64,000 nt of DNA from contig NZ_CP049246.1 of the NCBI RefSeq assembly GCF_011046555.1, forward strand, positions 1,550,001 through 1,614,000, read 5' to 3'. Below the pieces are notes generated by a model, which worked only from the letters and a program-made list of their open reading frames with translations, made no database searches and was not told the DNA's origin. Below, in pieces: positions 8,036 to 12,498 of this stretch. This stretch comes from Sphingobacterium lactis. Its GTDB lineage: Bacteria; Bacteroidota; Bacteroidia; Sphingobacteriales; Sphingobacteriaceae. How positions within the stretch are numbered: position 1 is the first letter of the stretch; each line of letters begins with the position of its first letter. Both the position numbers and the translations under genes were made by a program.

Positions 8036-9244
8036 ATGAGCAAGGGAAAATTAAACGAAAGAACTTCGCGGTTTTTAAATGGCGAGTTAGGAGATATCAA
8101 GTCGAAAAACTTATATGCTTATTTTAGACCGATTCAATCCAAGCAAGACACCGAAGTTATTATCGATGGCAAGCGTGTGTTGATGTTTGGATCCAACTCA
8201 TATTTAGGGTTGACAACCGATGTTCGTATTATCGAGGCCGCACAGGATGCGCTGGCTAAATATGGAACAGGTTGTGCGGGTTCACGTTTCTTGAATGGTA
8301 CCTTGGATATTCACGTGGAATTGGAAGAAAAATTAGCCGACTACGTGGGTAAGGATGCTGCCATACTGTTCAGTACAGGTTTCCAATCGAACCTGGGTCC
8401 ATTGTCCTGTTTGACAGGTCGCCATGACTATATCCTTTTGGATGAACGCGATCATGCTTCCATTATCGATGGTAGCCGTCTGTCGTTCTCCAAAGTTATC
8501 AAATATGCGCACAACAACATGGATGATTTGCGCGACAAGATGTCCCGTCTTCCTGAGGAAAGCTTTAAGCTGATCGCAACGGACGGTATCTTCTCCATGG
8601 AAGGCGATATTGTAAAATTACCGGAATTGGTGCAGGTAGCGAATGAGTATGATGCGGCCATCCTTTGTGATGATGCGCACAGCTTAGGTGTTATCGGTGA
8701 AAAGGGTGCCGGAACAGCGAGTCACTTCGGATTGACCGAAGACGTAGACTTGATCATGGGTACCTTCAGTAAATCATTGGCCTCCCTGGGTGGGTTTGTT
8801 GCCGCAGATACCGATACCATTGAGTTCCTTAAACACCGTGCCCGTTCCTTAATGTTCTCGGCAAGTATGACACCTGCATCGGTTGCATCCACGCTGAAAG
8901 CCCTGGAAATTATCCAAACCGAGCCTGAGCATATCGAGAAATTATGGGCGAACACCAACTACGCCAAGAAATTATTGTTGGATAATGGTTTTGACCTGGG
9001 TGCTACCGAAAGCCCGATCCTTCCTGTCTTCGTGCGCAACAACGAGAAAACGTATGTCGTGACCAAGATGTTGCAGGATGATGGGGTATTCGTGAACCCT
9101 GTGGTTGCTCCGGCCGTACCAGCGGAAGAATCCCTAATCCGATTCTCTCTAATGGCGACGCATACTTTCGACCAAATTGATGAAGCCGTGGATAAAATGG
9201 CTAAAGTATTCAAAGCCTTAGAGGTGGAGAGTTTTATAAGTTAA
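8036..9244 (+). CDS. spt: Serine palmitoyltransferase
   Basis: The 402-residue PLP enzyme condenses L-serine with palmitoyl-CoA to 3-ketodihydrosphingosine, the committed step of sphingolipid synthesis. Segments [68 protein letters not shown] and [13 protein letters not shown] match the soluble Sphingobacterium multivorum enzyme almost word for word as I remember it. Lys246 in FSKSLA corresponds to its PLP lysine (Lys244; this protein is two residues longer at the N-terminus). SPT-specific features separate it from the related KBL and BioF enzymes. It heads a five-gene operon with tight spacing. Confidence 0.95.
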
Positions 9245-9262
9245 ACACTAACCGAATACAAA

Positions 9263-10384
9263 GTGATTACTATAGTTCCTGTTGAAACAAAGAAGGAGAG
9301 GGCGAAGTTCATCGATTTCCCGCATGATCTCTATGCGAATGATCCGAACTATGTGCCCGAACTTTTCTTAGGACAGGATGATTTATTGAATCCTGCGAAA
9401 CATCCCTATTACAAGCATTCCTCCGCACGCCTGTTCCTAGCGTACCGCGACGGAAAGATTGTGGGCCGGATCGCAGCATTCTGGAATGTAAATCATAATG
9501 CCTTTAATAAAGTGAACGAAGGCCAATTTGGCTTTTTCGACTGCATAAACGACCAGGAAGTTGCCGACCAATTGTTCGCCGCTGCAGAAGCATGGGTGAA
9601 GGATAAGGGCGGTGATAATATCGTCGGACCAATCAACCTGACCACGAACGACACCACAGGTCTGCTGGTACAGGGTTTCGATCGGCCACCAATGGCGATG
9701 ATGCCCTACAATTTTCCATACTACGAAGATCTGATCCTGCAAGCGGGGTTCGCCAAAAAGGTCGATCTGCGCGCATACCTCGTGACCAAGGCGACAGCCA
9801 GTCAGCGGTCGGTATTGCTTTTGGATAAATTGGAAGAGCGCTTGAAGCGTTCGGGAATCATCCTGCGCCAGATCAATCTGAAGGATTTCAAGAATGAGGC
9901 TGCCCGTATCAAAGAGGTGTACAACAAAGCATGGGATAAGAACCTGGGCTTTGTGCCGATGACGGATGATGAATTCATGTATGTCGCCAAGGACCTGAAA
10001 ATGATCGTGGATCCCAAATACTGCATTGTCGCCCAAAAGGGTGATGAGATCATCGGTTTTGCATTGGGTATCCCGAATATCAACGAAATCCTGATCAATA
10101 TCGAAAGAGGTCGCCTCCTTCCGACGGGAATCTTTAAGCTCTTATTTGGTAAGAAGCATGTCAAATCCGTGCGTGTACTGATGCTCGGCGTCTTGGATTC
10201 GTACCGTAAGTTAGGTATTGAAGCCTGCCTATACGGTCGCATCATCAAGAATGCACTTCCTTCGGGAATTGTCGAAGCGGAATGTTCCTGGATGTTGGAC
10301 CACAATTATATGATGAACCACGCGATTGAACAGATCAACGCGGACTTATATAAGAAATATCGACTTTTTGAAAAAGCGGTATGA
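9263..10384 (+). CDS. GNAT-fold acyltransferase, candidate ceramide synthase
   Basis: This 373-residue protein has a double GNAT-like layout: residues about 1-130 (FIDFPHDLYANDPNYVPEL, ARLFLAYRDGKIVGRIAAFWN) and about 200-370 (CIVAQKGDEIIGFALGIPNINE, VRVLMLGVLDSYRKLGIEACLYGRI). It belongs to a conserved family usually annotated only as N-acetyltransferase. In Caulobacter a GNAT-superfamily protein near SPT was shown to act as ceramide synthase; the position here, directly after spt, suggests the same N-acylation of the sphingoid base by acyl-CoA. That role is inference. The start is GTG 9263, 18 bases after spt; its stop overlaps the next start (ATGA). Confidence 0.75.
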   Translation: MITIVPVETKKERAKFIDFPHDLYANDPNYVPELFLGQDDLLNPAKHPYYKHSSARLFLAYRDGKIVGRIAAFWNVNHNAFNKVNEGQFGFFDCINDQEVADQLFAAAEAWVKDKGGDNIVGPINLTTNDTTGLLVQGFDRPPMAMMPYNFPYYEDLILQAGFAKKVDLRAYLVTKATASQRSVLLLDKLEERLKRSGIILRQINLKDFKNEAARIKEVYNKAWDKNLGFVPMTDDEFMYVAKDLKMIVDPKYCIVAQKGDEIIGFALGIPNINEILINIERGRLLPTGIFKLLFGKKHVKSVRVLMLGVLDSYRKLGIEACLYGRIIKNALPSGIVEAECSWMLDHNYMMNHAIEQINADLYKKYRLFEKAV

Positions 10385-11392: not shown

Positions 11393-12094
11393 ATGAGTGA
11401 CGGTAAAATAAATAAAAAGCTTTTTCAGGATAGAAAGCGGACAAATATATTGAGTAACCCCGAGCAGCGCCTGATTACCTACCTGGTGCCGCGCATCCCG
11501 AACTGGATTTCCTCCGACGGCCTGACTGCTATCGGTATGTTCGGATCCCTCATGATCCTCGGCAGTTTCCTGCTGGCGGAATATGTGCACATCAATTACC
11601 TCCTTTTGGGGATCGTTGGTTTCTTCGTGCAATGGTTCGGAGATTCCCTGGATGGGCGTATCGCCTTCTACAGGAATAAATCCCGCAAGTGGTACGGATT
11701 TGCTTTGGATATCGTGATGGACTGGGTGAGTACGGTCTTTATCGGTTTAGGGTACGTGCTATATGCACAGGGTGATTTCAAATATCTAGGATTTACCCTG
11801 GTGGCGCTTTACGGTTGGGCGATGATTATTTCCCAGTTGCGCTATCGGATCACGGATCAGTACACCATCGATGCAGGACTGATGGGGCCTACGGAAATCC
11901 GTGTGATCATCTCTTTGGTGATGGTCTTGGAGGTGTTTGTTCCTGGTTCTATCAACTATTCGGTATTGGCCATCTGTATCATCCTGTTCTTTATCAACCT
12001 TGGGGACACCAAGAAATTGCTGGCCATGGGTGATGCGAAGGACCTGGAGGAGAAAGCGAAGAAAAAAGCTGCTGAAGAAGCTGCACAACAATAA
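11393..12094 (+). CDS. CDP-alcohol phosphatidyltransferase-like enzyme
   Basis: This 233-residue membrane protein carries the CDP-alcohol phosphotransferase signature as DSLDGRIAFYRNKSRKWYG followed by FALDIVMD; the four Asp residues are all present, while the usual Arg after Ala is Phe. About six hydrophobic helices follow (LGFTLVALYGWAMII, VIISLVMVLEVFV, LAICIILFFIN). The C-terminus is charged (KDLEEKAKKKAAEEAAQQ). Such enzymes move a phospho-alcohol headgroup from a CDP carrier or to a lipid acceptor in the inner membrane. In this operon the likely acceptor is dihydroceramide, giving a phosphorylated sphingolipid (phosphoethanolamine or phosphoinositol type); the donor is not identifiable. 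Confidence 0.82.
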   Translation: MSDGKINKKLFQDRKRTNILSNPEQRLITYLVPRIPNWISSDGLTAIGMFGSLMILGSFLLAEYVHINYLLLGIVGFFVQWFGDSLDGRIAFYRNKSRKWYGFALDIVMDWVSTVFIGLGYVLYAQGDFKYLGFTLVALYGWAMIISQLRYRITDQYTIDAGLMGPTEIRVIISLVMVLEVFVPGSINYSVLAICIILFFINLGDTKKLLAMGDAKDLEEKAKKKAAEEAAQQ

Positions 12095-12105
12095 TCACTG
12101 GGCAG

Positions 12106-12498
12106 ATGAATGCGAAGGTACGTGAATTTCTAAGGGCGCAACTATCGGCATTTGTCGGTGGCCTGTCGGACTTTGGGATCTACACCTTCTGCTATACGGC
12201 ACTGAAGTTGACCGCTCCGCTTTCCAATGTAATTTCGGGCAGTTTGGGTGCCGTTGTCAACTTTACGATCAATCGGTATTGGTCGTTCAAATCTTCCGAA
12301 ATGCCCATCGGGAGCCAACTCTGGAAGTTTATCGTCGTGGTGCTCTGCAGCATTGGCTTGAAAACCCTCGGCGTCCATATCTTTGTGGATAAGCTCCACT
12401 GGCACTTCCTCATCGGAAAGCTCCTGATCGAAATCGTTGTTTCGCTGGGGTTCAACTTTACGATGCAGAAGTACTGGGTGTTCAGGAAGGAGAGGTGA
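12106..12498 (+). CDS. GtrA-like four-helix membrane protein
   Basis: This 130-residue protein has four hydrophobic segments and GtrA family marks: FVGGLSDFGIYTFCY, NVISGSLGAVVNFTINRYWSF and NFTMQKYWVFR. GtrA proteins are thought to help flip polyprenyl-linked sugars across the membrane. Here it ends the sphingolipid operon, 11 bases after the phosphotransferase gene, so a role in moving or presenting sphingolipid intermediates is possible but unproven. Its TGA stop is also the first triplet of a 7-base repeat array. Confidence 0.85.
   Translation: MNAKVREFLRAQLSAFVGGLSDFGIYTFCYTALKLTAPLSNVISGSLGAVVNFTINRYWSFKSSEMPIGSQLWKFIVVVLCSIGLKTLGVHIFVDKLHWHFLIGKLLIEIVVSLGFNFTMQKYWVFRKER

Follow-up and report, generated by a model that had tools for sequence, protein, structure and literature searches.

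A conserved five-gene operon of Sphingobacterium predicted to direct membrane sphingolipid synthesis

We analyzed a 64,000-nt stretch of DNA from Sphingobacterium lactis (contig NZ_CP049246.1, positions 1,550,001 to 1,614,000; hereafter the window), taken from a 4.03-Mb genome in one contig (G000; G and L numbers are our handles for genomes and loci). Our subject is a run of five genes at 8036-12498 that a first-pass annotation of the window had proposed as a sphingolipid operon. The open reading frames (ORFs) are exactly as that annotation gave them, all on the plus strand and separated by gaps of 18, -4, 10, and 11 bases (Table 1). They encode, in order, serine palmitoyltransferase (SPT), a tandem-GNAT protein, an extended SDR, a CDP-alcohol phosphotransferase (CPT), and a GtrA-family membrane protein. 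The Pfam assignments of genes 2 to 4 score 25.1 bits (Acetyltransf_1, cut-off 20.7), 108.9 bits (Epimerase), and 25.9 bits (CDP-OH_P_transf, cut-off 22), and gene 5 matches PF04138 (GtrA_DPMS_TM) at 72.2 bits against a gathering cut-off of 26.1. We consider it likely that the operon is one transcription unit for membrane sphingolipids, in which a ceramide-forming trio is followed by a CPT-GtrA headgroup unit.

Table 1. Features of the five-gene locus and its borders, in window coordinates.
Feature	Position	Strand	Remarks
Putative Bacteroidota-type -7 box TAnnTTTG	7958-7965	+	upstream of spt in 22/26 Sphingobacterium
Putative operator, 29-base inverted repeat TTTTGAC-N-TCAAAA	7972-8000	+	between promoter and spt
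spt, serine palmitoyltransferase (SPT)	8036-9244	+	402 aa; Aminotran_1_2; NCBIfam 721.3 bits; PDB 8guh
Tandem-GNAT N-acyltransferase, predicted ceramide synthase (bCerS-like)	9263-10384	+	373 aa, GTG start; Acetyltransf_1
Extended SDR, predicted 3-keto-(dihydro)ceramide or 3-ketosphinganine reductase (CerR-like)	10381-11382	+	333 aa; Epimerase
CDP-alcohol phosphotransferase (CPT), predicted headgroup enzyme	11393-12094	+	233 aa; CDP-OH_P_transf
GtrA-family membrane protein, predicted lipid translocation or headgroup partner	12106-12498	+	130 aa; GtrA_DPMS_TM
Putative intrinsic terminator, 12-pair stem then T run	12565-12592	+	longest stem among 5 sites

The identity of gene 1, which the annotation had called near certain, is confirmed on two counts. 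The protein clears the equivalog cut-off of 640 bits for CFB-type SPT (NCBIfam SerpalmtaseCFB, NF047600), and it scores 736.5 bits against the structurally solved SPT in PDB 8guh. The SPT of S. multivorum NCTC11343 (L221), which likewise heads an operon of this five-gene order, is identical to PDB 8guh over 399/399 residues.

The order sample comprised 151 genomes, 114 of which carry an SPT over the cut-off. We examined the neighborhoods of all 114, labeling genes without an ORF filter and counting GNAT as following SPT when it was the next labeled gene on the same strand within 1.5 kb. GNAT directly follows SPT in 112 of the 114 genomes; SPT-GNAT-SDR is contiguous in 96, and SPT-GNAT occurs without the SDR in 16. 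The two genomes in which SPT and SDR adjoin with no GNAT between them (G155 and G289) each have a GNAT ortholog elsewhere. The full order SPT-GNAT-SDR-CPT-GtrA recurs in 26/26 sampled Sphingobacterium genomes, with gaps mostly of a few bases, and because of this recurrence the arrangement is far beyond chance. The neighborhood comparison across Sphingobacteriaceae that the annotation had proposed thus finds the cluster conserved well past its source genome. These synteny counts (112/114, 96/114, and 26/26) refute the notion that genes 2 to 5 are chance neighbors of spt, to which we assign virtually no probability. Two second SPT copies, in two Mucilaginibacter genomes (G202 and G213), were omitted from the count of 114; both stand alone (L088:5701-6927 and L191:2281-3498), and another alpha-oxoamine-synthase-like gene lies near the copy in L088.

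Conservation extends beyond the order. In the class-wide sample, 10 of 149 genomes have an SPT that passes the cut-off, six of them with the trio contiguous. In the other four, all Bacteroides-like (G032, G073, G139, and G107), SPT, GNAT, and SDR lie apart, which fits the annotation's statement that the sphingolipid genes of Bacteroides are scattered. Two further genomes, G022 and G102, encode an SPT-like protein that misses the cut-off; a classical short SDR adjoins the gene, and there is no GNAT. A GNAT profile scan of named genomes returned 557 relatives; among the best 80 of these 557 loci, SPT-GNAT is present in 77, the trio in 68, and the five-gene order in 23, with the GNAT apart from SPT in L256, L268, and L270 and nine loci without the SDR. 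Besides Sphingobacteriaceae, the trio is found in Dyadobacter, Runella, Chitinophaga, Taibaiella, and Chryseosolibacter. Plasmids of two Actinomycetota, Rubrobacter radiotolerans and a Streptomyces (L310 and L312), carry SPT, GNAT, and SDR relatives in a row (GNAT 35% and 32% identical, SDR 29% and 30%, respectively). An Aureispira plasmid holds all three together with the SDR on the opposite strand, and the SPT cluster of a Roseomonas plasmid includes a full-length GNAT, 34% identical, about 10 kb from SPT.

Gene 2 tracks SPT at the level of close homologs. An ortholog of at least 57% identity is present in 7/7 SPT-positive genomes of the family that were tested, two of them with the gene relocated, and none of the 20 SPT-negative family genomes tested (of 37 SPT-negative genomes) has a close ortholog, relatives there being only 28-33% identical. 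The wider GNAT family is widespread (110 of 149 class genomes), and therefore only the close group follows SPT. A 40-row tree, which left out five intended rows including the GNAT of Bacteroides-like G032, has compositionally skewed Roseomonas, Rubrobacter, and Streptomyces rows, and places two paralogs and Roseomonas on long branches, unites the SPT-linked Bacteroidota sequences in a group of 21 with support 100/100. Three of the 21 do not adjoin SPT (G117, L256, and L268), and the GNAT of L256 is probably the relocated gene of G289. The SPT-unlinked GNATs of Bacteroides-like G073, G139, and G107 cluster with the GNAT that adjoins SPT in G110 (support 100/99). One genome counts against the association: G117 encodes a GNAT that falls within the SPT-linked group (49%), and the search for its SPT at E 1e-130 was negative. 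Within a few genes of that GNAT (L066) is a classical short SDR.

N-myristoyltransferases acylate an amine with a long chain carried by CoA, and the predicted structure of gene 2 resembles them. The model (mean pLDDT 88.3) is a tandem GNAT along its entire length and aligns with MAB_4324 (Z 24.9, root-mean-square deviation 3.2, 302 aligned residues) and with an N-myristoyltransferase (Z 16.6, deviation 4.9, 291 aligned), such enzymes scoring Z of about 16. The model thus suggests an acyl-CoA N-acyltransferase fold, and the natural reading is that gene 2 would N-acylate the long-chain base, with the reservation that a shared fold does not itself prove the reaction. Its relation to the bCerS proteins CCNA_01212 and BF9343_4218 was approached through the Roseomonas SPT-cluster protein, to which it is 34% identical over its full length, and through the Bacteroides-like GNATs in the tree; BF9343_4218 and BF9343_4240 serve as B. 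fragilis CerS and CerR in excerpts of PMC10865984, from 2024. A PDB entry listed as 'KrKA' (E 0.044) was dropped as a GNAT relative when the profile search did not recover it. Proteins annotated as YghO on plasmids of E. coli and Pseudomonas veronii are also full-length relatives, at about 34%. Taken together, the conserved trio, the co-occurrence with SPT, the tandem-GNAT/N-myristoyltransferase fold, and homologs in the SPT clusters of other phyla support the N-acyltransferase role that the annotation gave to gene 2. Because of the synteny across and beyond the order and the co-occurrence of GNAT with SPT, we regard SPT-GNAT-SDR as a well-supported dihydroceramide-making core, although some genomes with SPT and GNAT have no such SDR, as described next.

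The reductase role proposed for gene 3 is supported in a similar way, by the conserved trio, by co-occurrence with SPT, and by homologs in SPT clusters of other phyla. The GxxGxxG and YxxxK motifs (G9, G12, G15, Y144, and K148) are invariant in 12 aligned sequences. All four Bacteroides-like SPT-positive genomes have full-length relatives (34-38%, E about 1e-60) unlinked to SPT, and among the 20 SPT-negative genomes only three have any match at E 1e-20, the best at 2e-24. Two observations weigh against assigning the reduction to this gene. First, the SDR was found nowhere at E 1e-20 in 15 Mucilaginibacter genomes (loci L110, L118, L123, L132, L133, L134, L136, L138-L140, L142, L144-L146, and L166) or in G160, all of which have SPT and GNAT, implying in the Mucilaginibacter either another reductase or an unreduced product. 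The annotation's reading of the locus as a sphingolipid operon is supported; its statement that all core steps are adjacent is too strong for these relatives of the genus. Second, the SDR profile gives 68.9 bits to the SDR of the proteobacterial Roseomonas SPT cluster, a stand-in whose own CerR identity is unproven, and 88.2 bits to a PDB UDP-glucose epimerase; this comparison does not mark gene 3 as a specific CerR ortholog.

A different possibility is that the keto group is reduced by a classical SDR of the BT_0972 type encoded elsewhere and that gene 3 modifies the lipid otherwise. In the excerpted part of PMC9278070, BT_0972 acts as a 3-ketosphinganine reductase and its gene lies apart from SPT; the SDR-less Mucilaginibacter and G160, as well as the classical SDRs that adjoin the divergent SPT-like genes of G022 and G102, are what this explanation would lead one to expect. 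We nevertheless find it quite improbable, since the gene 3 family tracks SPT even where the two are unlinked (4/4 Bacteroides-like SPT-positive genomes) and sits within the trio at 96/114 loci and on the Actinomycetota plasmids. The SDR relative shares a 10-base overlap with a PAP2_3 gene in three Bacteroides-like genomes and in Bacteroides finegoldii (L326:4166-6132, L327:4420-6398, L328:3220-5294, and L313:4992-6955); in the fourth Bacteroides-like genome, G107, no PAP2_3 gene was found at the SDR. The overlapping PAP2_3 protein is a possible ceramide headgroup transferase in those Bacteroides-type genomes.

Gene 4 carries the CDP-alcohol phosphotransferase motif, DX2DGX2AR...GX3DX3D, with one deviation. 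D84, D87, G88, A91, G102, D106, and D110 are invariant in 10/10 sequences, and the motif residues, including all four catalytic aspartates, are kept in at least 32 of 33; the deviation is the arginine, which is displaced two positions to residue 94 and does not directly follow Ala 91. The only PDB enzymes matched by the sequence profile are the choline/ethanolamine phosphotransferases CHPT1/CEPT1 (E 6e-8 to 3e-6). The list had a single other row, in which an antiporter subunit came up at E 0.46; it was taken as chance. The predicted model (pLDDT 79.8) places PIP synthases first (Z 18.4), followed by AF2299 (16.8) and CHPT1 (13.7). Sequence and fold therefore point to different sides of the family.

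Our best guess for the headgroup is phosphoethanolamine, with the donor unproven; this headgroup would presumably fit the lipids of the genus. The source genome has just two CDP-OH_P_transf genes. No CDP-ethanolamine synthase was identified among its candidate nucleotidyltransferases (CTP_transf_like and NTP_transf_3), which tells against this choice, as does the presence of just three CTP_transf_like matches in each of the CPT-positive genomes G149 and G101. Searches with PF01467 and PF12804 returned four and three candidates in G000, six of which pass NCBIfam cut-offs as NadD, CoaD, RibF, RmlA, IspD, and KdsB. L303, the seventh, is an unassigned cytidylyltransferase without a match at E 1e-20, and it adjoins genes that by eye resemble polysaccharide genes. 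Its ortholog in G152 does not reach the cut-offs for heptose or glycerol-phosphate enzymes.

We also weighed inositol made by the cell itself as the CPT headgroup. In Pedobacter and Mucilaginibacter the trio is followed by inositol modules, and ceramide phosphoinositol is reported for S. spiritivorum in an excerpt of PMC9246714. However, MIPS (myo-inositol-phosphate synthase, PF07994) is absent from the source genome and, counting it, from 21/26 Sphingobacterium genomes, all 26 of which have CPT. The five MIPS-positive genomes hold a separate module (MIPS, NTP transferase, a protein of unknown family, CDP-OH, LPG_TM, and HAD) away from the operon. The absence of MIPS together with this separate module makes de novo inositol unlikely as the headgroup: CPT probably does not use it, and we ruled against this candidate, leaving it a very slight chance.

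The distribution of CPT bears on the lipid that receives the headgroup. Strong matches (E 2.5e-73 or better) occur in 63 of the 151 order genomes, comprising 58/114 SPT-positive and 5/37 SPT-negative ones, and CPT lies inside the SPT chain in 27. Those five SPT-negative genomes, and two f54 genomes with CPT and without a CFB-type SPT at E 1e-130, count against a function confined to ceramide. In the four SPT-negative loci read (G149, G167, G101, and G065) the cluster consists of a 262-aa short SDR, a 268-289-aa PhyH-type gene, CPT, and GtrA, the Pfam typing resting on one SDR and one PhyH protein; DUF4833 is present in three of the four loci read.

The occurrence of CPT in genomes without SPT leaves a glycerolipid product standing as a rival. 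On that account the trio makes dihydroceramide, and CPT-GtrA make a glycerophospholipid (from CDP-diacylglycerol, or from a CDP-alcohol and diacylglycerol) that donates its headgroup later or never, so that two lipid classes are co-regulated. The nearest PDB folds of CPT, the PIP synthases, are users of CDP-diacylglycerol, and the want of an identified CDP-ethanolamine synthase in G000 agrees with such a product. There is a parallel in BT1523, which according to the portion of PMC9246714 at hand makes a glycerolipid donor then used by BT1522. Against this, CPT always stands behind the trio in the 26 Sphingobacterium genomes, its sequence profile favors the Kennedy-type CHPT1/CEPT1 over enzymes that use CDP-diacylglycerol, and the operon has no PAP2-type transferase. 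We judge the glycerolipid account unlikely, though it deserves serious attention. That gene 4 adds a headgroup to ceramide is tentatively suggested by its position, fold, and analogy.

GtrA adjoins CPT in every CPT locus that we read. Its neighbor in inositol clusters is PgpA, MIPS, or DUF5686, and some Mucilaginibacter clusters have no labeled GtrA. The GtrA of the B. thetaiotaomicron inositol-phosphoceramide operon is BT1524, the deletion of which, in the excerpts of PMC8791184, lowers inositol-phosphoceramide and raises phosphatidylinositol in membranes and not in vesicles. A role for GtrA is called into question by a conflicting result, since the passages of PMC9246714 on this gene describe a BT1524 knockout with no inositol-lipid change by thin-layer chromatography. 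By position, fold, and analogy, it is plausible that GtrA translocates a lipid.

What follows the trio differs among the relatives of Sphingobacterium. In many Pedobacter and Mucilaginibacter loci the following genes encode MIPS, PgpA, GtrA, DUF5686, PIP synthase, DUF4833, a fatty-acid hydroxylase, and an Aur1-like PAP2 protein. The PIP synthase of these clusters scores 398.6 bits against the BT1523 equivalog cut-off of 350, MIPS is present in 75 of the 114 SPT chains, and the labeled chain stops after the trio in 8 of 39 Pedobacter loci. An inositol headgroup module follows the trio in Chitinophaga as well, and Dyadobacter (L227) has DUF5686 and an NTP transferase/CDP-OH/LPG_TM/HAD module directly after it. 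In Sphingobacterium the module is CPT-GtrA. The intermediate genome G160 has SPT-GNAT-DUF5686-hydroxylase-CPT-GtrA-DUF4833, with CPT-GtrA-DUF4833 replacing PIP synthase. Both its position and the partners it has in common with the other modules speak for CPT having taken the headgroup slot. Runella (L234) has similar-sized genes at the position of the Dyadobacter module. DUF5686, which we take to be of the outer-membrane type, DUF4833, and the fatty-acid hydroxylase are frequent in the ceramide-inositol supercluster (L062, L085, L091, and other Pedobacter and Mucilaginibacter loci) and are candidates for sphingolipid export and hydroxylation.

From the observed anatomy, conservation, co-occurrence, and predicted folds, we infer the catalytic roles of genes 2 to 5, the order of reactions, the headgroup, and flipping as follows. 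Spt would condense serine with an acyl-CoA to 3-ketosphinganine, the tandem-GNAT enzyme would N-acylate the long-chain base with a second acyl-CoA, and the SDR would reduce the keto group to give dihydroceramide. CPT would then place a phospho-alcohol, most likely phosphoethanolamine, on ceramide or on a headgroup-donating lipid, and GtrA would move the lipid, or the carrier of its headgroup, through the inner membrane. The reaction proposed for CPT, transfer from a CDP-alcohol to a lipid hydroxyl, is also that of the insect ceramide phosphoethanolamine synthase. We tentatively extend the scheme to a fixed SPT-GNAT-SDR core with exchangeable modules, in which the Sphingobacterium CPT is a CDP-alcohol-dependent ceramide phosphoethanolamine synthase, an independent bacterial parallel to that of insects, with its own GtrA translocase and a dedicated operator; in its entirety this extension is possible, though less likely than not.

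Upstream of spt, the motif TAnnTTTG, presumably a Bacteroidota promoter box, lies within 160 bases in 22 of 26 Sphingobacterium loci, compared with 4.4 expected in letter shuffles; here and for the repeat described next, the genomes are related and the counts are not independent. The inverted repeat occurs in 19/26 Sphingobacterium spt upstreams, its length constantly 29 bases and its spacer diverged, and in none of the 90 other spt upstreams (two second spt copies among them). It is the sole match in the window, where 0.16 are expected, and by sequence it looks like an operator for a regulator. The annotation's single terminator corresponds to a stem and T run that is only a plausible end of the operon, as the region has five terminator-like sites and shuffles average 6.1. 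Downstream lies a complete rRNA operon (16S, two tRNAs, 23S, and 5S) at 14653-19727, flanked at 12496-12565 and 19776-19840 by related short tandem repeats of the GTATTGAGAT type. Several Sphingobacterium contigs stop right after gtrA, which an rRNA-operon repeat at that place would explain.

The chemistry proposed here is mostly foreseeable; the value lies in two assigned steps, the module swap, and the headgroup question. The conserved trio offers candidate enzymes for N-acylation and reduction in a sphingolipid-rich genus with a solved SPT, and the module swap is a direct route to headgroup enzymes, the phosphoethanolamine step included. In the literature consulted we met no assigned enzyme for that step in Bacteroidota. 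We found no description of this operon in the titles, abstract starts, and passages of the open-access literature, which is weak evidence of absence. Such clusters may already have been shown by Stankeviciute et al. (2022). As of 2022, the relevant passages of PMC9246714 describe the steps after SPT as uncharacterized in Bacteroidota, and the BT_0972 reductase was reported the same year (PMC9278070, excerpts). According to the excerpted text of PMC11334938, clustered spt/bcerS/cerR genes are known outside Bacteroidota, and in the sphingolipid producers among the Bacteroidota these genes do not lie near one another. Our results qualify that statement: it fits the Bacteroides-like genomes and not Sphingobacteriaceae, Dyadobacter, Runella, or Chitinophaga.

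The ceramide/phosphosphingolipid cluster of Caulobacter crescentus (spt, bcerS, cerR, and further genes; PMC11087976, PMC11324152) likewise joins Spt, an N-acyltransferase, and a reductase. It is spread over several operons, whereas the Sphingobacterium unit is one tight five-gene operon without a dedicated acyl carrier protein or acyl-ACP synthetase. Caulobacter CerR is periplasmic in the excerpts of PMC11087976; the 12 SDRs aligned here all start at the Rossmann motif and so have no room for a signal peptide. An extended SDR and a CDP-alcohol phosphotransferase are likewise present in the Caulobacter-related plasmid cluster of Roseomonas, which has LptF/LptG-type permeases in contrast to the GtrA of Sphingobacterium. 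B. thetaiotaomicron BT1522-BT1526 (PMC8791184 and PMC9246714, both in excerpt) likewise places a CDP-alcohol phosphotransferase beside GtrA in a headgroup locus; the Sphingobacterium operon differs in having the ceramide trio and in lacking MIPS, PgpA, and PAP2, and its CPT is only weakly similar to BT1523 (27 bits against the cut-off of 350). A putative alternative inositol module of B. vulgatus and Prevotella (NTP transferase, CDP-OH phosphotransferase, and HAD; PMC9246714, excerpt) also includes a CDP-alcohol phosphotransferase. The same make-up follows SPT-GNAT-SDR-DUF5686 in Dyadobacter; it is not in the source operon and is separate from the operon in the five MIPS-positive Sphingobacterium. 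With eukaryotic CHPT1/CEPT1, finally, the Sphingobacterium CPT may share the transfer from a CDP-alcohol to a lipid hydroxyl, although it has 233 aa and carries D-IVM-D where CHPT1 has its D-HGC-D segment.

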